A DNA stretch of 64,000 nucleotides from Synechococcus sp. BSA11S. Its GTDB lineage: Bacteria > Cyanobacteriota > Cyanobacteriia > PCC-6307 > Cyanobiaceae. The notes below the pieces were generated by a model. The model made no database searches, had not been told where the DNA came from, and saw only the letters and a list, made by a program, of their open reading frames with translations. The position numbers and the translations under genes were made by a program. Of the stretch, positions 7,460 through 17,956 are shown piece by piece. The stretch covers positions 186,001 through 250,000 of the forward strand of contig NZ_VNWP01000002.1 in the NCBI RefSeq assembly GCF_014224355.1, given 5' to 3'. The stretch's first letter is position 1. Every line of letters starts with the position of its first letter.

Positions 7460-7567
7460 GGGATGGTCGGTCTTGATCCAACCCTAGATCGGTGCTGACG
7501 CCGGACGGCCCAGGCGCACTGGACGAGGCCTTGGCCCTAGGGTCTGAGCCTTCAGAGTCCTTTCTTG

Positions 7568-8371
7568 ATGCAGAGCTCGATGCGCCCGGCCGGTGGCGAC
7601 GGACCAGGAGCTGGTTTTCAGCTGATCGCCGCTGTGGCCGTGGCGTTGCTGATCCTGCTCACCCAGACCATTTTCATCGTGCCGGCCGGCACCGTGGCAG
7701 TGGTTACCACCCTCGGACGGGTGACGGGCGGCCAGCGCAGCCCCGGCCCCAACGTCAAGGTGCCCCTGATTCAGGCCACCTCCTTCTTTGATGTGCGTAC
7801 CCAGGTACGGCCTGAGCAGTTCTCCACCCTCACCAAGGACCTGCAGGTGATCGAGGCCACTGCCACGGTCAAGTACTCGATCAAGCCGCAGGAAGCGGGC
7901 CGGATCTACGAAACGATTGCCACAGACAACCAGCAGATCTATCCGCGCATCATCCAGCCGTCGTTGCTCAAGGCACTCAAATCGGTGTTCTCCCAGTACG
8001 AACTGGTGACCATCGCCACCGAGTGGAACAGCATCTCCGAGCTGGTTCAGGACATGGTGGCCCAGGAACTGAGCAAGTTTGACTATGTGAAAGTGCAGGG
8101 ACTTGACCTCACCGGATTGCAGATCGCGGAGGAATACCGTTCGGCGATTGAGCAGAAGCAGATCGCCGATCAGCGGCTGCTGCGCGCCCAGACCGAAGTG
8201 AAGATTGCCGAGCAGGAAGCCAAGCGTTACCAGATCCTCAACTCCAGCCTGGATGATCAGGTGCTCTTCAAGCTCTTCCTCGACAAGTGGGATGGTCAGA
8301 CGTCTGTGGTTCCTGCCCTGCCGGGCACGGCGGGCGGCGGCACACCGGTGATCGTCAACGGCCGCCGCTGA
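7568..8371 (+). CDS. SPFH/prohibitin family membrane protein
   Basis: A 267-residue prohibitin-type protein. One N-terminal transmembrane helix (about residues 20-42, ending IFIVPAGTVAVV) is followed by a band-7 domain with TLGRVTGG, a duplex of beta strands and a helical region rich in Glu/Gln/Arg (about 180-225) that would form a coiled coil. Such proteins assemble large membrane rings and guard or scaffold membrane proteases such as FtsH. ATG 7568 is preferred; TTG 7565 is directly in front of it. It converges with the small unknown gene at 8409. Confidence 0.88.
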   Translation: MQSSMRPAGGDGPGAGFQLIAAVAVALLILLTQTIFIVPAGTVAVVTTLGRVTGGQRSPGPNVKVPLIQATSFFDVRTQVRPEQFSTLTKDLQVIEATATVKYSIKPQEAGRIYETIATDNQQIYPRIIQPSLLKALKSVFSQYELVTIATEWNSISELVQDMVAQELSKFDYVKVQGLDLTGLQIAEEYRSAIEQKQIADQRLLRAQTEVKIAEQEAKRYQILNSSLDDQVLFKLFLDKWDGQTSVVPALPGTAGGGTPVIVNGRR

Positions 8372-8408: not shown

Positions 8409-8783
8409 TCAGTCGTAGCGGCACTCCGGGGTCAGGCCAGGCACCGTGAACTCCTGGAACCAGAGGAAATCGCGACTTCTCCAGCCCAGATCGAACGGGG
8501 CCGTGGAGGTCCACTCCCCTGGCTCCAGCTGGAACCGGGAGCTGAGATAGGGCGGTACTAGGGCTTCCACCTCCTGCTGTCCGGTGCTGTCCTCATCTGG
8601 AAACAGCCGATCGAGGTAGAGCACCGCGAAAATCGCCGCTTCCTCATCCACCACCACCACCTCGAACGGCCCGTCCTCGGCGGGTAGGGGTGTGACCTCA
8701 AAGAATTCATCCCGCTCCAGCGGATCTGCCGGCGCCTTCTCCATCAGGGCCGCCAGGGCCTGCTTGAAACGATCAAGGGTCAC
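8409..8783 (-). CDS. Conserved small protein of unknown function at the end of the protease operon
   Basis: Starting at GTG 8783 this is a 124-residue acidic protein beginning with VTLDRFKQALAALM. A central region reads EVVVVDEEAAIFAVLYLDRLF, and the end is aromatic-rich (DFLWFQEFTVPG). The GTG overlaps the stop codon of the upstream CPBP protease gene (GTGA junction), so the longer frame to 8933 is mostly antisense-like noise inside the protease gene. I do not recognise the family. Its position as last gene of a coupled six-gene operon suggests it works with the protease module. Confidence 0.65.
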   Translation of the reverse strand: MTLDRFKQALAALMEKAPADPLERDEFFEVTPLPAEDGPFEVVVVDEEAAIFAVLYLDRLFPDEDSTGQQEVEALVPPYLSSRFQLEPGEWTSTAPFDLGWRSRDFLWFQEFTVPGLTPECRYD

Positions 8784-11224
8784 GTCGGGGCCTGCGTCTG
8801 CCCTCGCATCCTCGCCCTCCCCCCCAGGCCCCAGAGCCAAAGCGTTACGGCCAGCCCATGCAGCAGCACCGGTGGCCAGAGCGAGCCGGTGGTCCCGTAG
8901 GCCAGCACGCAGGCCACCCCCAGCAGGGTGCACTGCACCAGGAAGCGCCGGTCGCGGAACACTCCCCGGCCCGGGGGATACCAGACCATCGCGGCCAGGG
9001 GGTGATAGAGCACGAACAGGCCCACGCTCAGGGCCCCCCAGGCAGCACTGCTGGCTATCGAGCCGCCTTCGAGGGGATGGGGCATCAGGGCCACGCGGAA
9101 GAGCAGTTCCTCCCCCAGGGCCGGCATCAGCATCAGGCGGGGCGCCGCCCGCAGGGCCGGACCGATTGCCTCCAGCCGCCAGGGGGTCAGAAAGCCTGAG
9201 CGCCAGCCCAGGGACAGGGCCAGCGCCGCGTAGGCCGCCAGAATCGCCAGACTGCGGGCCAGGGCGGTTGGGCCCAGGGGGGCGAACAGGGCATCACTGA
9301 GGCGCCGCAGCAGGGTGGACAGTGGTGGGATCTGACCCAGCAGCAGGGTGGGAGCGAGGGGCTCGATCGTGGTGTCACCGCCCGCGAGCTGGTTGGTGCG
9401 CAGGAACCAGATGCCGGCACCGTGCTGCAGGAACACCCGCGCCATGTCGTCGTGGGCGCGGCGGGGCAGCATCGAGCGCCAGCTCAGCAGGGCATCCAGG
9501 CCAGTTTCGCCGCGCATGAACCTCTCACCGGCCACCACTTCGGCGTTGTGACGCCAATCCGCGCGGACTGTGCCGAAGGGAGTGAGCAGGTCGTCGAGGG
9601 AGCGGGCCAGGCTGGCCAGCTTCAGGAAGGCCAGGCTCGAGCTCTCCTGAGGATGCTCCGCAAGCCAGCCCCTCAGACCTGGATCGGCCTCCACCCGGCG
9701 CCTTAGTCGATCAATCGCGATGAAGAGCGCCTGGCTCGAATCCTGCACGCAGGAGGTGGAGGGCGTCACTGTCGAGACCCCGCTGCCATCGCCACTGCGG
9801 TAGCGGGCCATCAGCACCTCCGCCTGGATCGCCAGCTCCCGCAGCAGCGAGAGCTCCTGCCCGTCCACTGTCAGGTCGTCGAAGGGCTGCAGCTTGATCA
9901 CAACATCGGAGATCGGCCGGGAGCCCATCCAGCCCCGCTGCAGATCTCCGCTGAAAGCCGTCCAGTCCTGCGTCCCCGCAACGATGCCGTTGGGGTTGTT
10001 GGCATAGATCTGGTGGTAATGCAGATCGAAGCGGGGCTCGCCGGTGATGGCATCGCTCACCACCCGCGCGTCTCCGAAGGCGAAGTGGCCGGTCACGGTG
10101 GCGCCGCTGATCCGCTCACCTCCCGGGCCACCGATCCCGCCGAAGCTGTGGATCAGCAGGGCCCTCTCCCCCGGCCGCCAGTGCTCGGCCAGAGGCCCCG
10201 TGGCGGCGGAGGGCTCCAGCAGCACCCGCCTGAGGCGCCCCCGTTGCTGCGGGGTGTCGGCCCAGTTACCGCGCAGGATGTAGGGAATCCCCTCCCGGCC
10301 CGCCGGCAGGATGGCCTCGGGGCGGAGCTGATGAAGGGCCCGGGGCCTGAGTGCCTGGGCCGTGAACGTCCCCTCGGCGTCGGGGGCGCCGTAGAGGTAC
10401 CAGCCCTGGCGGCCCACGGGATTGGTGATCAGCCCCAGGGGCGTGGAGATCCAGCGGCCGTAACGGTCCCGCGGCTGCTGGGGCACCCGCACCACGTCCG
10501 TGGGGCCGCTGAAGTCATGCCGCTCCGGATTCCAGTGGCGCACCCGGAAGCGCTCCTTCTCTCCGGGAACGGGCCCGAGAATCCGCACCAGCCCCACGTA
10601 GCGGCCGCTGATCTGCACCGGTGGCTCGCCGATGCGCAGCTGCGTCGAGCCATCCGGTCGCGGCTCCAGCTGCACCTTCTCCAGCTGCACGATCAGATCG
10701 TCGTTGGGGCGTGCCCCCGCCAGCGACTGGAGAGGGCCCACCTTCCGGCGCCCGTCCAGGCGCCGCGGCAGCAGATTCCCCTGCTTCTCGATCTTCAGCG
10801 CGGCCGGTGTGAAGCGCACATCGGTGCTCACCCGCTCCACCAGCTCCTTCAGCTCCGGCTGATCCACCCAGCCCAGCCGCAGCACCTGCCCCTCCAGCCC
10901 CCGGGCCGTGGCAGGGGCGTGCTCGATCTCGATCCAGACCCAGTCACCCGGCTCCCGGCCGGTCTCCTCGGCGCCGGGCAGGATCAGCCGCCCGATCCAG
11001 TCGGCATGGGGCCGGTAGCGCCGCGGGTCGGGCCGTTGGCTGAGCGGGTAGTGACTGGGACGGTTGAAGGGTGCGGCCTGCGCCAGGGCGTAGCTGCTGC
11101 CGGGAATGGGGTCGCTGGCTGACCCGGAGGGTGTGGGTCCGCCCGCCTGGACCGGAGTCAGCAGCAGCGACACGGCCAGGGTCAGCAGCAGCAGCAGAAC
11201 CCGCAGGGCAGGGGCTGATCTCAT
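8780..11224 (-). CDS. CPBP-family intramembrane protease with very long N-terminal exported region
   Basis: Starting at ATG 11224, a 814-residue protein with a signal peptide or anchor at 1-28. About 550 residues follow without obvious transmembrane helices, apparently beta-rich and proline-rich. The C-terminal membrane domain (about 630-805) carries CPBP motifs: EELLFR at 705-710, FVLYH at 737-741 and a third histidine near 789 (LLHGLAV). CPBP enzymes are glutamate-type intramembrane proteases related to Rce1. The usual HxxxN/B last motif ends in Val/Thr here. ATGA overlap with the zinc-ribbon gene upstream and GTGA overlap with the small gene downstream argue for coupled expression. Confidence 0.8.
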   Translation of the reverse strand: MRSAPALRVLLLLLTLAVSLLLTPVQAGGPTPSGSASDPIPGSSYALAQAAPFNRPSHYPLSQRPDPRRYRPHADWIGRLILPGAEETGREPGDWVWIEIEHAPATARGLEGQVLRLGWVDQPELKELVERVSTDVRFTPAALKIEKQGNLLPRRLDGRRKVGPLQSLAGARPNDDLIVQLEKVQLEPRPDGSTQLRIGEPPVQISGRYVGLVRILGPVPGEKERFRVRHWNPERHDFSGPTDVVRVPQQPRDRYGRWISTPLGLITNPVGRQGWYLYGAPDAEGTFTAQALRPRALHQLRPEAILPAGREGIPYILRGNWADTPQQRGRLRRVLLEPSAATGPLAEHWRPGERALLIHSFGGIGGPGGERISGATVTGHFAFGDARVVSDAITGEPRFDLHYHQIYANNPNGIVAGTQDWTAFSGDLQRGWMGSRPISDVVIKLQPFDDLTVDGQELSLLRELAIQAEVLMARYRSGDGSGVSTVTPSTSCVQDSSQALFIAIDRLRRRVEADPGLRGWLAEHPQESSSLAFLKLASLARSLDDLLTPFGTVRADWRHNAEVVAGERFMRGETGLDALLSWRSMLPRRAHDDMARVFLQHGAGIWFLRTNQLAGGDTTIEPLAPTLLLGQIPPLSTLLRRLSDALFAPLGPTALARSLAILAAYAALALSLGWRSGFLTPWRLEAIGPALRAAPRLMLMPALGEELLFRVALMPHPLEGGSIASSAAWGALSVGLFVLYHPLAAMVWYPPGRGVFRDRRFLVQCTLLGVACVLAYGTTGSLWPPVLLHGLAVTLWLWGLGGRARMRGQTQAPT

Positions 11225-12552
11225 CGGCGTGGGGGCAGCGTTGATGGAGCCACGTCCAGTTGGGCGGCTCCGCACTGGCTGCAGTAAGACAGATGGCGGT
11301 GGGTTTGCTGGTGGCACAGCACGCAGTCGCGGAACTGCCCGTAGCCGCAGTGGGGGCAGTGGCGGCTTCCGGCCGGGAGCCTGCGGGCGCAGCGCAGGCA
11401 GCGGTGGCGCTGTGCCCGCTCCGCCGCCTGCACCCTCGGGTTGAACACCAGGGTCTGCAGCAACTTGATCAGGGCGAAGCCCACCACGGGCACCACCAGC
11501 AGATACAGATAGCTGACCAGGAAGCGAAGGTTGCCCACCAGGGCCTGCACGGCCTGAAGCACCACGCTGAAGATCACCCCCACCTGGGCCATCTCAGCCA
11601 GCTTCAGCAGCAGCGGGATCAGGGTGAGCACCAGCAGGTGCCAGCTCACCAGGGCGAGCAGGCCATGGCCGCCGCGCAGGGCCAGGCGGTGGATCTGCAG
11701 GCTCAGCAGCACCAGTGGCATCAGGAACAGGCTCTGGAGCAGCAGGCGCTGGCTCGGGGCCCAGAACAGAGCCCTCTCGAAACGCTGCTCCATGGCCTCG
11801 AAGCTCGCCGTGCGGTTCAGGAAACCGAGGAAGGCCTGGCTCTCAGGGGCCTCCAGCAGCTTCTCCTGGAGGGCCACCACCTGACTTCGCAGCACGCTGA
11901 TGCGGGCGTCGTTGGCCTCGATCCGTTGCCGCGCCTCGGCGGCGGGCACCGGCTGAAGGGCTTGGGAGGCAGGTTGAGCGGCGATCTGCTCCAGCAGGCT
12001 GGAGTCGTACTGCGAGCGGATCGTGGCGTTGCTCTGCTCCAGGGTGGCGATCTCGCGCTCGGCCCGATCCAGGTCCCGCTGCAGCCGTCGCAGCCCCGGC
12101 TGGGCGGCGATGCGGTCCTGGTGGCCGGCGAACTTCAGGCAGAGGGGGTCCACACGACCGAGATGATCACGGCTGGCCTCCTGTGCACTGGCTCGGAAGC
12201 CCGGCGCGGGAGCTGAACTCTGCGTCTCGCCCGGGGCCCGGCGCGGAATCGCCCGGCGAAGGATCGCCAGACCCTGCTCTCGACGGTCGCCACCGGCCTC
12301 CCGGTAGAGGCTCCACTCGGCCTCGCAGGGGAAGGCCTGCTGCGGGCTGAGGGGCCACTGGCCGATCGCGGCCATGCCGCTGAAGATGTTGACCAGCAGC
12401 ACCAGATCGACCAGGACGATCACCAGCAGGCTGGCTTTGTTCAGGGGCTGGTCGTTGAGGGTCCCCGATCGCTGCAGCAGGCTCTTGAGCAGACGCCCCA
12501 GCCGGCGACGGGCGCCTCTCAGGCCTTCGATCCATGGGAGTCCTGGCGGCAT
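11221..12552 (-). CDS. Membrane protein with coiled coil and C-terminal zinc ribbons
   Basis: A 443-residue protein of unknown function. A transmembrane helix lies near 41-62, followed by a soluble region containing a heptad-like coiled coil (about 165-245, rich in Gln/Glu/Arg/Leu). Four or so further hydrophobic helices follow (about 260-380). The C-terminus has a double zinc-ribbon pattern: CLRC, CPHCG, CVLC and CSQCG between about 388 and 430. Zinc-ribbon tails of this type often mediate protein contacts. It is sandwiched between a retropepsin-like gene (10-base gap) and a CPBP protease gene (ATGA overlap), so it may be an adaptor for, or substrate of, these proteases. That is inference. 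Confidence 0.7.
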   Translation of the reverse strand: MPPGLPWIEGLRGARRRLGRLLKSLLQRSGTLNDQPLNKASLLVIVLVDLVLLVNIFSGMAAIGQWPLSPQQAFPCEAEWSLYREAGGDRREQGLAILRRAIPRRAPGETQSSAPAPGFRASAQEASRDHLGRVDPLCLKFAGHQDRIAAQPGLRRLQRDLDRAEREIATLEQSNATIRSQYDSSLLEQIAAQPASQALQPVPAAEARQRIEANDARISVLRSQVVALQEKLLEAPESQAFLGFLNRTASFEAMEQRFERALFWAPSQRLLLQSLFLMPLVLLSLQIHRLALRGGHGLLALVSWHLLVLTLIPLLLKLAEMAQVGVIFSVVLQAVQALVGNLRFLVSYLYLLVVPVVGFALIKLLQTLVFNPRVQAAERAQRHRCLRCARRLPAGSRHCPHCGYGQFRDCVLCHQQTHRHLSYCSQCGAAQLDVAPSTLPPRR

Positions 12553-12562
12553 CGGGGCTGCC

Positions 12563-13543
12563 CTAGGGCCAGAGAGTCAGCGTCGCAGGCGTGGCGTCCA
12601 ACCGCCAGAGCTGGGCCCGCCTTCGCAACAGCTCCTGGCCCACGATCGCCTCCACCCTCAGGCTCGTGAAGATCGGGTTGTCGGTCACGATGGCATCGAC
12701 GGCCCTGAGCGGATCTCCACCGGGCAAGGCCAGTCCGGCCATGGGTTGGCGCCGGACCCGCTGTTCACCACAGAATCCCGTCAGCCGCAGGCCCTTGGCC
12801 GGGGCCAGTGGCCGCAGCTGTGCCGCCAGCGCCGATGTGATGAACAGCCCTTCCGCCCCGGTGTCGGCCAGGGCCCGGGATGGGCCGGCCGGCGTGGTCA
12901 GGGGCAGCAGCGGCACCTGCTGGCGCCAGACCAATGGCAGGGTGGTGGGCCGCTCGCCACGCTCAGAGCTTGCTCGGCTGTGGGACTCCGCCTCGGCAAT
13001 GGCCCGCTGGCCCAGGCTGAGACGTCCGCCCTGGGGATCGATCCAGAGCGGTTGCTGCCGCAGCTGCGGTGCTCCCAGCACTCCATCGACCCCTTCCGGC
13101 AGCCCGGCCACCGGCAGCACCAGCGCCTCCATGCCGCTGATCCTCAGGCGGTCAGCGCCGGAGGCGAGCACCAGCTCCGGCAGCTGCACCCGCTGGGGCC
13201 GCAGCTCCGGGCAACCATCACCGGCTCCGGCGAGCGAGAACGCCTTCGGATCCACCGGCTGGCTCCGCAGCCCCAGCCGCCGCACCAACTCTGGTGTCAC
13301 CAGGGTGGTGGAGGCCCCGGTGTCGAGCAGCACACGCACCTGGCCGCGTCCGCTCCGCAGGCTGAGCACGGGGGTGTCGCCGCCCGTGGCCCGCACCAGG
13401 GGAACGCTCACCTGGCCGCTGCTCGTGCCAGCGGCCAGGGGTGGACCCCCCAGCTGAATCAAGGCCGCCGTGGTTGTGCCCGCCATCGCTTGTGGCATCA
13501 GGCTGGCCAGCCCAAGCTCCAGTGCGGTGGCCAGCCCATTCAT
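12563..13543 (-). CDS. Tandem retropepsin-like aspartic protease homologue (two DTG motifs)
   Basis: From ATG 13543, a 326-residue protein with a likely signal peptide (first 22 residues). It has two retropepsin-like units. Unit 1 has LLDTGAS at 72-78 and a VDGVLG flap-like/psi-loop segment at 152-157. Unit 2 has LADTGAEG at 225-232 and AIVGQELL in the matching place near the end. Retropepsins normally act as homodimers of one DTG each; here a single chain supplies both, as in pepsin. Substrate unknown, probably periplasmic. The ATG overlaps the stop of the META-domain gene (ATGA). The longer frame to 13624 lies inside that gene. Confidence 0.78.
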   Translation of the reverse strand: MNGLATALELGLASLMPQAMAGTTTAALIQLGGPPLAAGTSSGQVSVPLVRATGGDTPVLSLRSGRGQVRVLLDTGASTTLVTPELVRRLGLRSQPVDPKAFSLAGAGDGCPELRPQRVQLPELVLASGADRLRISGMEALVLPVAGLPEGVDGVLGAPQLRQQPLWIDPQGGRLSLGQRAIAEAESHSRASSERGERPTTLPLVWRQQVPLLPLTTPAGPSRALADTGAEGLFITSALAAQLRPLAPAKGLRLTGFCGEQRVRRQPMAGLALPGGDPLRAVDAIVTDNPIFTSLRVEAIVGQELLRRRAQLWRLDATPATLTLWP

Positions 13544-14355
13544 GGGGTGCCGGCCCTGCGAAGGGTGACAGCCAGGGCCCCATCGGGGCGGCGCAGCTCC
13601 AGGCGCTCCGCCTCGATCCTCCACTGGCCGGCGGATTCAAGGGCGCTCAGGAACTGGACCTCCTGCTCCATCACCCCCCTGGGCTGGCTGCAGATCCTGC
13701 GGGTGGCGACCGGCGGCTTCACCTTGAGGGTGCCCTCACCCAGTTGCACCGCCGCGGCATAGCGGTTGCAGCCGGCCGTTCCCGTCAGTCGCCCGCGACT
13801 CTTCAGCTCCAGGCTGAGGGTGCTGCCGGCCAGGGTGCTGACCACCGCCTGCCTGCCGTTGTTGAACCCTGTCACGATCCAGACGCTGCCTGCGATCTCC
13901 TGCGGCTGGGGCCTGAAGCGTGCCACCGGCCTGCCGCCCGTGGTGAGAAGCTCCAATCTGCCGTTGCGCAGTCGATAGCGCCGTGCGGATCCCAGGACCG
14001 CACGGAAGGTCTCGGCCTGGCGCCTCTGCCTGGGGGGACAGGCCATCAGGGTTGATGGACCCGGCTGGTTGACGCGGAAGCTGGAGCCCTTCACCTGAAC
14101 AGGAGCGCTGTAGCGGTTGCAGCCATCGCTGCCGCTGATCCGACCCGCCTCGAGGCGCAGGGTCGGTGCCGGCGGCAGCACCGCCCGCTGTCCTGGGATC
14201 GACTCCAGCAGCCAGGCGCTTCCCTCCAGCGTCGCAGCAGGCGCTGCCTTGGACCGGGGGGAGTGGTCGGGTTGGGCGTGTGCCGGCAGGGAGCTGAACC
14301 CCAGCAGGGCCCCGAGGGCCAGGCTGGCCGCAGCAGGCGTGTTGCGTTGGATCAC
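13540..14355 (-). CDS. Double META-domain (HslJ-like) exported protein
   Basis: Starts at GTG 14355, two bases after the stop of the upstream permease gene. The 271-residue product has a signal peptide ending near PAHAQ (residue 28), then two META/HslJ-like domains. Each has a W-containing first strand (GSAWLLESI; GSVWIVTGF) and a GCNRY motif (DGCNRYSA; AGCNRYAA). META domains occur in outer-membrane or secreted heat-inducible proteins and bear on stress or novobiocin tolerance in Escherichia coli; their molecular role is unclear. The product is probably periplasmic, coupled by ATGA overlap to the retropepsin-like gene. Confidence 0.82.
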   Translation of the reverse strand: MIQRNTPAAASLALGALLGFSSLPAHAQPDHSPRSKAAPAATLEGSAWLLESIPGQRAVLPPAPTLRLEAGRISGSDGCNRYSAPVQVKGSSFRVNQPGPSTLMACPPRQRRQAETFRAVLGSARRYRLRNGRLELLTTGGRPVARFRPQPQEIAGSVWIVTGFNNGRQAVVSTLAGSTLSLELKSRGRLTGTAGCNRYAAAVQLGEGTLKVKPPVATRRICSQPRGVMEQEVQFLSALESAGQWRIEAERLELRRPDGALAVTLRRAGTP

Positions 14356-14356
14356 G

Positions 14357-15271
14357 TCAGGCTGGGCGGACACCGGTGCCCATCCTGGTGCCCAGCAGCA
14401 CCAGCAGCAGACCGACGACCGTGACGGGGTGGATGGCCTCCCCCAGCACCAGGGCTGCACTGATCACGGCCACCACGATCGTCAGCGATCCCCACAACGA
14501 CACCTGGGCCACACTCCAGTGGCGGTAGGCCTGACGCAGGGCCAGTTCACTGCCCAGGGACAGGCCGATTCCGTAGATCACGATCACCCCCACCACCCAC
14601 GCGGCGCTGAGCAGGTGGAAATGGGAGGGTCCGAACAGGATCAGGGCCAGGGCGCCGAACACCAGGGCCGAGACCGTGGTGGTGAGCCCCACCGTGAGAG
14701 CCGCCGGCCAGCCGCGCTGGGCAATGGCGCGGCCGCTCACCCCGGCACCCGCGAAGGCAACCACCCCCACCAGGGCCCAGATCACCCCTCGCACTTCGTC
14801 CATCGGTCCGTCCATGCGGGCCATCGCCAGCTGGGGCAGTAGCAGCCCGAGCACGATCAGCCCGAAGCTCAGCCAGAAACCCCGCGGCAGCGTTTCCCCC
14901 AGCAGACGCCTGGCCAGAAGGGCTGATAGCGGCAGCACCAGGGCGAACAGGAGGGTCTGGCTGATCACCGAAAGGGCGTCCAGGGCGAAGTAGAAGGCCA
15001 CGGGTCCGAGGAACAGCCCCAGCACCGTGTCCAGCACCAGCAGACGACGATCACCCCCCTCCAACTGCTCCAGCAGTGCCGGCAGCTGGGCCCGTCCGGG
15101 CAGCAGGACCGTGAGGCCCACGATCATCTGAGCCACAAAGAAGACGTTGCAGAAGCTGATCGGGTTCTCGCCCCCGATCGGGTGAGACGCCCCGAAGGCC
15201 TGCAGCCCTTTCAACGCGGTGGCATTGAGCCCCTTGAGCACCACGTAAAGCAGCAGCGGAAACCAGGCCAT
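14357..15271 (-). CDS. EamA/DMT superfamily permease
   Basis: A 304-residue integral membrane protein with about ten hydrophobic helices arranged as two EamA repeats, each ending in a family-like stretch such as LSALLARRLLGETLPRGFW and WGSLTIVVAVISAALVLGE. Drug/metabolite transporter family members export amino acids, nucleotides or other metabolites; the substrate cannot be read from the sequence. ATG start at 15271. It is the first gene of a six-gene minus-strand operon followed by META, retropepsin-like, zinc-ribbon and CPBP genes. Confidence 0.85.
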   Translation of the reverse strand: MAWFPLLLYVVLKGLNATALKGLQAFGASHPIGGENPISFCNVFFVAQMIVGLTVLLPGRAQLPALLEQLEGGDRRLLVLDTVLGLFLGPVAFYFALDALSVISQTLLFALVLPLSALLARRLLGETLPRGFWLSFGLIVLGLLLPQLAMARMDGPMDEVRGVIWALVGVVAFAGAGVSGRAIAQRGWPAALTVGLTTTVSALVFGALALILFGPSHFHLLSAAWVVGVIVIYGIGLSLGSELALRQAYRHWSVAQVSLWGSLTIVVAVISAALVLGEAIHPVTVVGLLLVLLGTRMGTGVRPA

Positions 15272-15330: not shown

Positions 15331-16221
15331 TCAGAAAAAGAATTTCACCCCCATCTCCACTCCATTATGGTCGATGCTGTAAGCATTCTCCGGGGACTGA
15401 TCGTTGGTGCCTCCCAGATGCAGGTAGCGCCAGGAGAGATTGAGCTGGGTGTTGTTGCCCACCGCATAGCCAACTCCCACCTGGGCATTGGCGGAATAAT
15501 CATCGGAGTTGTTGACGCCGAAGCCACCGACATCACCCCGGGCGAACAGGCGCAAGCGCGGCGAGAGGAACACACTGGCCTGGGTTCCAAGCAATGGTTG
15601 GGTCACAGTGCCACCGAAACTCCTGGAACCGGAGAGGCTCCGGTTCGGTCCGTCGAACTGGGCACTCAGTTCGTAGCGCATATCGACGAAACGCACGCCC
15701 GCGTAGGGGATCACATTGAAGCTGCCCCCCTTGGCGATGGCCTGTTCCCTGTCGCCGAAGCGATAGCGCAAGGCCAGGTCATAGATCCCCTGGATGTTGT
15801 TGAGCGTCGCGCTCACTTTCCTCACCCCTGAGGGAGATGTCGTGGCCTCCTCCCCACGCAGGGACACATAGCTCAGGTCAGTGAGCAGCCCCAGCCGCTT
15901 GTACTCCACGCTGCCACGCACATAGGCGGCCATGGTCAGCGGGCGCAGCACCTGCTCGAGATCGAGGTCCAAATCGGCGGTCAATCCCTTGACGGTGGTG
16001 CTGCCGGTGGTGCGCAGGGGGAAAAACCCGTAGATCTCCGCCGTGGCACTCCAGGGGGAGGGGGGGGGCTCGGCCATCTGCTTCTCCTCTGTGCTGGTAG
16101 GGCCTTCGTCGGCACTGCCTGGGATCGCCTCGGTGGTTCCCTCTTCAGCAAGGGCGACTCCAGACTCGATCAGAGGCTGGATCAGGGCAAGGCCAAGCAG
16201 CAGCAGAGCCTGGGGCCGCAT
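15331..16221 (-). CDS. Outer-membrane beta-barrel protein
   Basis: ATG 16221 follows a GGAGG ribosome binding site three bases away, so the TTG at 16224 is unlikely to be the start. The 296-residue product has a signal peptide (about 1-25), an acidic Glu/Pro/Thr-rich linker to about residue 55, then alternating amphipathic strands. It ends in VKFFF: a terminal aromatic residue is typical of proteins inserted by the BamA/Omp85 machine. The pattern suggests an OmpA/OmpW-like small barrel, but I cannot name the family. It stands alone on the minus strand between the methyltransferase and permease genes. Confidence 0.75.
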   Translation of the reverse strand: MRPQALLLLGLALIQPLIESGVALAEEGTTEAIPGSADEGPTSTEEKQMAEPPPSPWSATAEIYGFFPLRTTGSTTVKGLTADLDLDLEQVLRPLTMAAYVRGSVEYKRLGLLTDLSYVSLRGEEATTSPSGVRKVSATLNNIQGIYDLALRYRFGDREQAIAKGGSFNVIPYAGVRFVDMRYELSAQFDGPNRSLSGSRSFGGTVTQPLLGTQASVFLSPRLRLFARGDVGGFGVNNSDDYSANAQVGVGYAVGNNTQLNLSWRYLHLGGTNDQSPENAYSIDHNGVEMGVKFFF

Positions 16222-16307
16222 CAACCTCCAGACGAGAGCAGAGTGAACAAATGGTTTGGGTGATGAACTTCCCTCAGGGGAGAGTAGTGGGAAGGGTGAT
16301 GGCCGGC

Positions 16308-16981: not shown

Positions 16982-17956
16982 TCAGGGTGTCTCCTCGAGA
17001 GGATCGGCTGGGGGGGAGTCTCGTTCTCCCGAGCTGCTGAACCGCTGCCAGCTGATCTCCTCGATCGTGCCCAGGGTCTCGGACTCGCCCGACGCTGTGG
17101 TCACGGTGATCAGGTCCGGTCGCCCGGCCAGCACCTGCAGACCCTCGGCCAGGGAAAAGTTTCCGGTGCCGGTGAACAGGCCCCGGAACAGTTCCTTCCC
17201 CTCACCGTTGCGCACTTCCAGCCAGCTGGGCTCACGGCTGCTCAGCTGAAGACTTCCCTGTCCCGGCTGAGCCTGAGCGGCGGACTCAGCAGGCTCTTCC
17301 TGGGTGGAGGTTGCAGCTTCTCTGGCCTCTGGGGTGAGCGGTGGGGTCGGCAGCTTGCTGGACGTGGGTCGGCTCTGGTTCCAGCCCATGGCCAGACCCG
17401 CCGCCAGGGCCAGGACGCCGGCGCCCCCCGCCAGCAGCCAGGGCATCGCGCCCCGCCTGGGCTTGCGGGTCGACTGAAGCAGGGCGCCGGTGCTCGACTC
17501 CCGGGGGGCCATGGCGGGAGCCGCCAGGCTCACCCTGGCCACGGGTGCCGAGGTCTGCCCCGGTGCCGGGGAGGCCGGGTTGGTTCTGGCGCTGCGGCTC
17601 ACCCCAGGCAGGTGGATGTTCAGCAGGGGCTCGGTCAGCTCATCGGCATCAAGACCGAGGCTGGTGGCCACCCGGCGGGCCTGGGCGATCAGGTAGATCC
17701 GCTCCGGGAGCCGGGTGTGATCTCCGCATTCCAGGGCATCGAGCCGGTCGGCGGAGAGGTAGTTCTGCTCGGCAAGAACCGGCAGGGGGATGCCCTGGGC
17801 CTGACGCGCTTCGGCGAGCTTGCGCCCCAGATCCACCAGGGCAGCCAGCCGCTCGGGGCCGGGGGAGTCGGCTGCGGCTGCCGATTCGCCGGCCTCGGCT
17901 GGATGGGAGGCGCGCTCGCTCACGCTCGTGCTGCTGTCGGGGTGTCGATCCATCAT
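16982..17956 (-). CDS. RodZ-like helix-turn-helix membrane protein (DUF4115)
   Basis: A 324-residue protein. An N-terminal helix-turn-helix of the RodZ/Cro type (about 45-115, with LGRKLAEARQAQGIPLPVLAEQ as its start) is followed by a Pro/Ala/Ser-rich linker. A single transmembrane segment (about 172-192) and a C-terminal periplasmic DUF4115-type domain (about 230-310, SWLEVRNGEGKELFRG) complete it. RodZ links MreB to the cell wall machinery; this domain order is the same. Tandem ATG codons at 17956 and 17953 both fit as start. The methyltransferase gene follows directly. Confidence 0.85.
   Translation of the reverse strand: MMDRHPDSSTSVSERASHPAEAGESAAAADSPGPERLAALVDLGRKLAEARQAQGIPLPVLAEQNYLSADRLDALECGDHTRLPERIYLIAQARRVATSLGLDADELTEPLLNIHLPGVSRSARTNPASPAPGQTSAPVARVSLAAPAMAPRESSTGALLQSTRKPRRGAMPWLLAGGAGVLALAAGLAMGWNQSRPTSSKLPTPPLTPEAREAATSTQEEPAESAAQAQPGQGSLQLSSREPSWLEVRNGEGKELFRGLFTGTGNFSLAEGLQVLAGRPDLITVTTASGESETLGTIEEISWQRFSSSGERDSPPADPLEETP

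Follow-up and report, generated by a model that had tools for sequence, protein, structure and literature searches.

A conserved Cys/His module fused to a CPBP protease domain in cyanobacteria and its recurrent coupling to a tandem retropepsin-like gene

To our knowledge, proteins of the CPBP (Rce1-like) family are common, yet few of them have an assigned role. In Staphylococcus, the permuted NlpC/P60 protein LnsA needs the CPBP-like protein LnsB, whose catalytic motifs are degenerate, for lipoprotein N-acylation (PMC7387801), and myxosortase is a sorting protease of the CPBP type (PMC11980579). More generally, permuted NlpC/P60 enzymes have been associated with acyl-chain substrates, and one of them, TseH, acted as a phospholipase in one assay (PMC12994826).

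Here we analyze a locus in a window of 64,000 nucleotides from Synechococcus sp. BSA11S that encodes a protein combining a probable permuted NlpC/P60 Cys/His part with a CPBP-family part, as LnsA and LnsB do between them; in both cases the parts can be encoded by separate genes, and no sequence similarity between the two systems has been shown. In contrast to LnsA and LnsB, the cyanobacterial N-terminal module (hereafter NTD) and CPBP domain are usually fused, OB-like barrels precede the Cys/His part, the CPBP active site is intact, and the cyanobacterial side has an aspartic-protease-like partner together with Lnt in the genome. Compared with the CPBP/Rce1-like proteases of PF02517, which include the myxosortase MrtX and whose catalytic motifs are kept in the C-terminal domain, the fusion adds the large NTD and a coupling to the gene of a tandem retropepsin-like protein (RP). 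No description of the NTD-CPBP fusion or of an RP-rhomboid-CPBP cluster was found in the literature library searched. RP and the fusion form the robust conserved core of the locus and, in the reading favoured below, its functional core. Interest shifts from the six-gene system first proposed to this undescribed protein and its recurrent RP and rhomboid coupling.

Gene order and its conservation within the genus

As the initial annotation described, six open reading frames follow one another on the minus strand: an EamA/DMT permease (14357..15271), a double META-domain protein (13540..14373, with an alternative GTG start at 14355) that is probably exported, RP (12563..13543; 326 aa), a zinc-ribbon/coiled-coil membrane protein with about five TM segments (ZnR; 11221..12552), the NTD-CPBP fusion (8780..11224; 814 aa) and a small protein of 124 aa without a Pfam match (8409..8783). 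The families named for them are borne out in Pfam for EamA, two META domains, two Asp_protease_2 domains and the Rce1-like/CPBP domain, with the zinc ribbon remaining below threshold. The junctions were also read correctly for the most part, namely an ATGA overlap between META and RP, a gap of 10 bases between RP and ZnR, ATGA between ZnR and CPBP and GTGA between CPBP and the small gene; the exception is the supposed 2-base gap between the DMT and META genes, which is a 17-base overlap if META starts at GTG 14373 or a 1-base gap if it starts at GTG 14355. The tight packing exceeds chance because these junctions are conserved: the META-RP ATGA overlap is found in nine of nine genomes of the genus and the CPBP-small A/GTGA overlap in eight of the nine and in another genus. 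Coupled translation, which had also been suggested, is probable. A promoter and terminator scan yielded nothing in either direction.

The nine-genome sample, which includes Synechococcus sp. WH 5701, 1G10, J7-Johnson, Cruz-7E5, RedBA-s and CS-1329, does not bear out the proposal that the run is one six-gene system. The META, RP, CPBP and small genes occur together in all nine genomes (the CPBP gene being split in WH 5701). The DMT permease is an optional cassette with the gene of a putative outer-membrane beta-barrel protein (OMP; 15331..16224, minus strand) that lies upstream of it, outside the core; both are absent in three of the genomes and degenerate in one. Among close relatives, the OMP gene is gained or lost in step with the permease gene. 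J7-Johnson and Cruz-7E5 lack ZnR; in both, the sequence past the RP stop still resembles the start of ZnR, indicating that the gene was deleted. A search of 150 genomes of the order detected no relative of ZnR beyond the genus. Being confined to the genus and lost twice, ZnR was dropped as the necessary adaptor that it had been taken for. The genes other than RP and the NTD-CPBP fusion would be dispensable, lineage-specific additions.

A RodZ-like HTH_25 membrane protein is encoded upstream of the run (16982-17956), and in several other genera relatives of this protein precede RP or CPBP. In WH 5701, the NTD-CPBP gene is interrupted by an insertion sequence (L049:10475-11997; transposase genes DUF772 and DDE_Tnp_1_2), so the sequenced form of that strain can probably do without it.

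The N-terminal module and the CPBP domain

The fusion had been annotated as a long CPBP protease, and its C-terminal domain is indeed of this family; three quarters of the protein, however, is a separate conserved module that had been missed. The predicted protein comprises a membrane anchor (residues 4-27), a region of OB-like barrels weakly suggested by structure comparison of the AF2 model (residues ~74-295), a Cys/His core (residues ~330-625) and the CPBP domain (residues ~633-806). The last of these scores 43.5 bits against PF02517 (cut-off 22.4) and keeps the EExxxR, FxxxH and H motifs (E705/E706, R710, H741 and H789), so that the predicted catalytic motifs are intact.

The NTD spans about 600 residues (~40-630) and has no Pfam match in any of 47 members, in all of which H359, H380, Q405, Y407, N410, C492, Q494 and D495 are invariant. 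It is fused to CPBP in many cyanobacteria, including Nostoc, Calothrix, Okeania and Leptolyngbya, whereas six genomes (G149, G239, G299, G316, G383 and G390) have it as a gene of its own and encode a closely related CPBP elsewhere. Furthermore, it occurs behind a hydrolase-like N-terminal part with a GFSGG motif, and the same eight residues are invariant in these hydrolase-fused paralogs. Judged from these sequences, the NTD is a module separable from CPBP. The NTD-hydrolase paralogs, of ~940-1000 aa, were found at six loci (L071, L072, L074, L076, L078 and L080); the gene of a small Pfam-less membrane protein lies directly upstream of the paralog, and RP precedes both at L076.

With respect to the fold of the Cys/His core, H380 precedes C492, which is the order of permuted NlpC/P60 domains, and a permuted NlpC/P60 fold was guessed from this motif order before structure modelling. 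AF2 modelled the full-length fusion confidently, with a pLDDT of 90.5 and a pTM of 0.90, with C492 at the start of a helix, and the core alone (codons 300-630; 9335..10327, minus strand) with a pLDDT of 81.5 and a pTM of 0.86. In structure, the core comes closest to TseH (6v98; Z 7.0, a value under the safe level; rmsd 4.2; 149 of 183 residues aligned), followed by a match with a Z of 4.8. The core shares the His-before-Cys order with the TseH, Tox-Act1 and DUF4105 (Lnb) clades of permuted NlpC/P60 proteins, one of which supplies its best match, and differs from them in that it has no sequence match to these clades and belongs to a membrane-anchored, widespread cyanobacterial protein rather than a secreted effector. 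Taken together, the models are suggestive of a permuted NlpC/P60-like domain.

Other searches added no relative. Foldseek gave no significant match for the full model or the core against the PDB or for the core against viral models, and a PDB profile search with the fusion gave none up to an E of 10. In Pfam, the 47 NTD members did not match Lnb_N/DUF4105 at E values up to 1, nor was there a match to any NlpC/P60 or other Lnb family or to Peptidase_C92 (YiiX/YaeF), with which an hhalign comparison of the core, based on four sequences only, reached a probability of 0.8%, like unrelated controls. Lnb_N/DUF4105 (PF13387) was found in none of 292 cyanobacterial genomes, and defence-system models returned only a weak retropepsin-type match. 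A resemblance of the CPBP region to Sec61 (VIA structure matches, Z up to 5.9) was set aside as a common helical arrangement.

Association of RP with CPBP beyond the genus

RP shares its DTG and hydrophobic-Gly motifs with the retropepsin-like proteases of PF13650, from which it differs in carrying two complete halves per chain, in a pepsin-like arrangement, and in its gene coupling to CPBP. As in a tandem PF13650 protein, the D[TS]G motif and the hydrophobic-Gly motif each occur twice, and the active-site residues D74 and D227 and both hydrophobic-Gly motifs are invariant in 11 orthologs. Because orthologs carry clear signal peptides, RP probably acts in the periplasm.

We surveyed 200 genomes of the order, finding NTD/CPBP relatives in 47, RP in 29 and the small gene in 25. 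RP and NTD/CPBP relatives co-occur in 26 of the 29 RP genomes (Fisher 1e-16) and in 18 of 21 outside the genus (Fisher 7e-12), both values ignoring relatedness and hence overstating the evidence. Outside the genus, RP adjoins CPBP in nine of 21 RP genomes, lying beside the fusion in six (G059, G063, G069 with a truncated RP, G119 at a distance of ~1.1 kb, G125 and G171) and beside a standalone CPBP in three (G112, G169 and G184); it lies elsewhere in the genome in another nine, and in G054 and G155, as at locus L076, it is found close upstream of the NTD-hydrolase paralog instead. Moreover, ATGA or GTGA overlaps leading from RP into CPBP recur in three other genera (loci L051, L054, L058, L109, L118 and L083-L085), both with and without the NTD (L083-L085, L051, L054, L058 and L109) and in two gene contexts, one with RodZ-like and Band 7 genes and the other with a rhomboid.

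The rhomboid gene (PF01694) lies immediately upstream of RP at L083-L085, L109/L186 and L176. The order rhomboid-RP-CPBP is seen in three genomes even without the NTD, rhomboid-RP-NTD-CPBP at L109 (= L186) and rhomboid-RP in G149, and many Cyanobium genomes have a rhomboid directly upstream of NTD-CPBP. The link between two protease types that was originally proposed therefore holds across genera, with a rhomboid as a third protease in some genomes. The proximity of RP to the fusion is limited to the Synechococcus/Cyanobium group; in other cyanobacteria the fusion has no RP, rhomboid, META or ZnR neighbours. The small gene, for its part, also occurs without CPBP in other genera and, in one group (g9), with neither CPBP nor Band 7 nearby.

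Candidate functions

We tentatively favour, over each of the alternatives below, the reading that the fusion works in the envelope as an enzyme that links Cys-dependent acyl or peptide chemistry to an intact CPBP domain, with RP as a periplasmic partner. The NTD would be placed in the periplasm behind its single membrane anchor, where C492 and H380 could serve to build a covalent intermediate next to the membrane surface, as in lipid-acting members of the superfamily. Together, the NTD and the CPBP domain would act on a lipid or on a (lipo)protein anchored in the membrane, much as LnsA and LnsB cooperate, by acyl transfer, acyl hydrolysis or peptide processing, and RP would trim or release substrates of that kind in the periplasm. 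Counting against this reading are the sub-safe Z of the TseH match, the negative outcomes of Foldseek, of the four-sequence C92 comparison and of Pfam for NlpC/P60 and Lnb families, and the fusions that lack an RP neighbour outside the Synechococcus/Cyanobium group. We do not claim membership in the LnsAB system because the CPBP motifs are intact and the genome encodes a full-length Lnt-like protein, so that the lipoprotein N-acylation role is not vacant. A more specific version, in which the fusion is a widespread one-protein analogue of LnsAB for envelope (lipo)proteins, with an acyltransferase of the permuted NlpC/P60 type linked to an active CPBP, and has become, with the tandem aspartic protease and with or without the rhomboid, an acylation-and-processing pathway in Synechococcus/Cyanobium, appears doubtful.

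A close rival, ranking just behind and possible in its own right, is that the locus serves envelope proteolysis and nothing else: RP would cut in the periplasm, CPBP, sometimes with the rhomboid, in or beside the membrane, and the NTD would bind or recruit the substrate, its Cys/His residues being structural or peptidolytic. In favour of proteolysis, the CPBP domain, unlike LnsB, keeps its catalytic residues; the invariance of both RP active-site motifs and the rhomboid-containing gene orders described above, those without the NTD included, point the same way. This account leaves unexplained the invariant Cys/His pair of the NTD and the joining of the NTD to a hydrolase-like domain.

We regard as rather unlikely the view that the genes are mere neighbours, each acting alone and packed by general compaction and inherited order. 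It would fit the NTD-CPBP proteins that stand apart from RP beyond the Synechococcus/Cyanobium group, the nine genomes with RP elsewhere, the solitary small protein and the insertion sequence in the WH 5701 fusion gene. Against it, the overlap between RP and CPBP persists in both gene contexts and whether CPBP is fused or standalone, and the co-occurrence of the two families, uncorrected for relatedness as it is, extends beyond the genus. Finally, the fusion might be a sorting enzyme, with CPBP cutting off a C-terminal anchor and the Cys of the NTD handing the protein on or setting it free. Myxosortase provides a precedent, and a Cys domain facing the periplasm would be well placed for transfer, but we consider this reading very unlikely.

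RP and NTD-CPBP may represent a novel route by which envelope proteins are processed or lipid-modified. The NTD, as a large Pfam-less module with an invariant Cys/His pair, provides a handle on the envelope roles of CPBP proteins and bears on why a CPBP-like protein partners an NlpC/P60 enzyme in LnsAB. Furthermore, the repeated coupling with a rhomboid and an aspartic-protease-like gene points towards a processing pathway that can be tested.

Two additional gene associations were observed. SPFH proteins modulate membrane proteases, and a Band 7/SPFH protein, encoded here on the plus strand (7565..8371), convergent with the six-gene run and not part of the operon, is a possible partner; a strongly conserved gene of this family lies near CPBP, on either side, in several genera (L050-L063, L098-L108 and L183), directly before RP at L183. 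In addition, at L084:2783-3580, about 2 kb from the rhomboid-RP-CPBP cluster and on the opposite strand, lies the gene for a META protein of another kind, which is joined to a YscW-like lipoprotein-chaperone domain.
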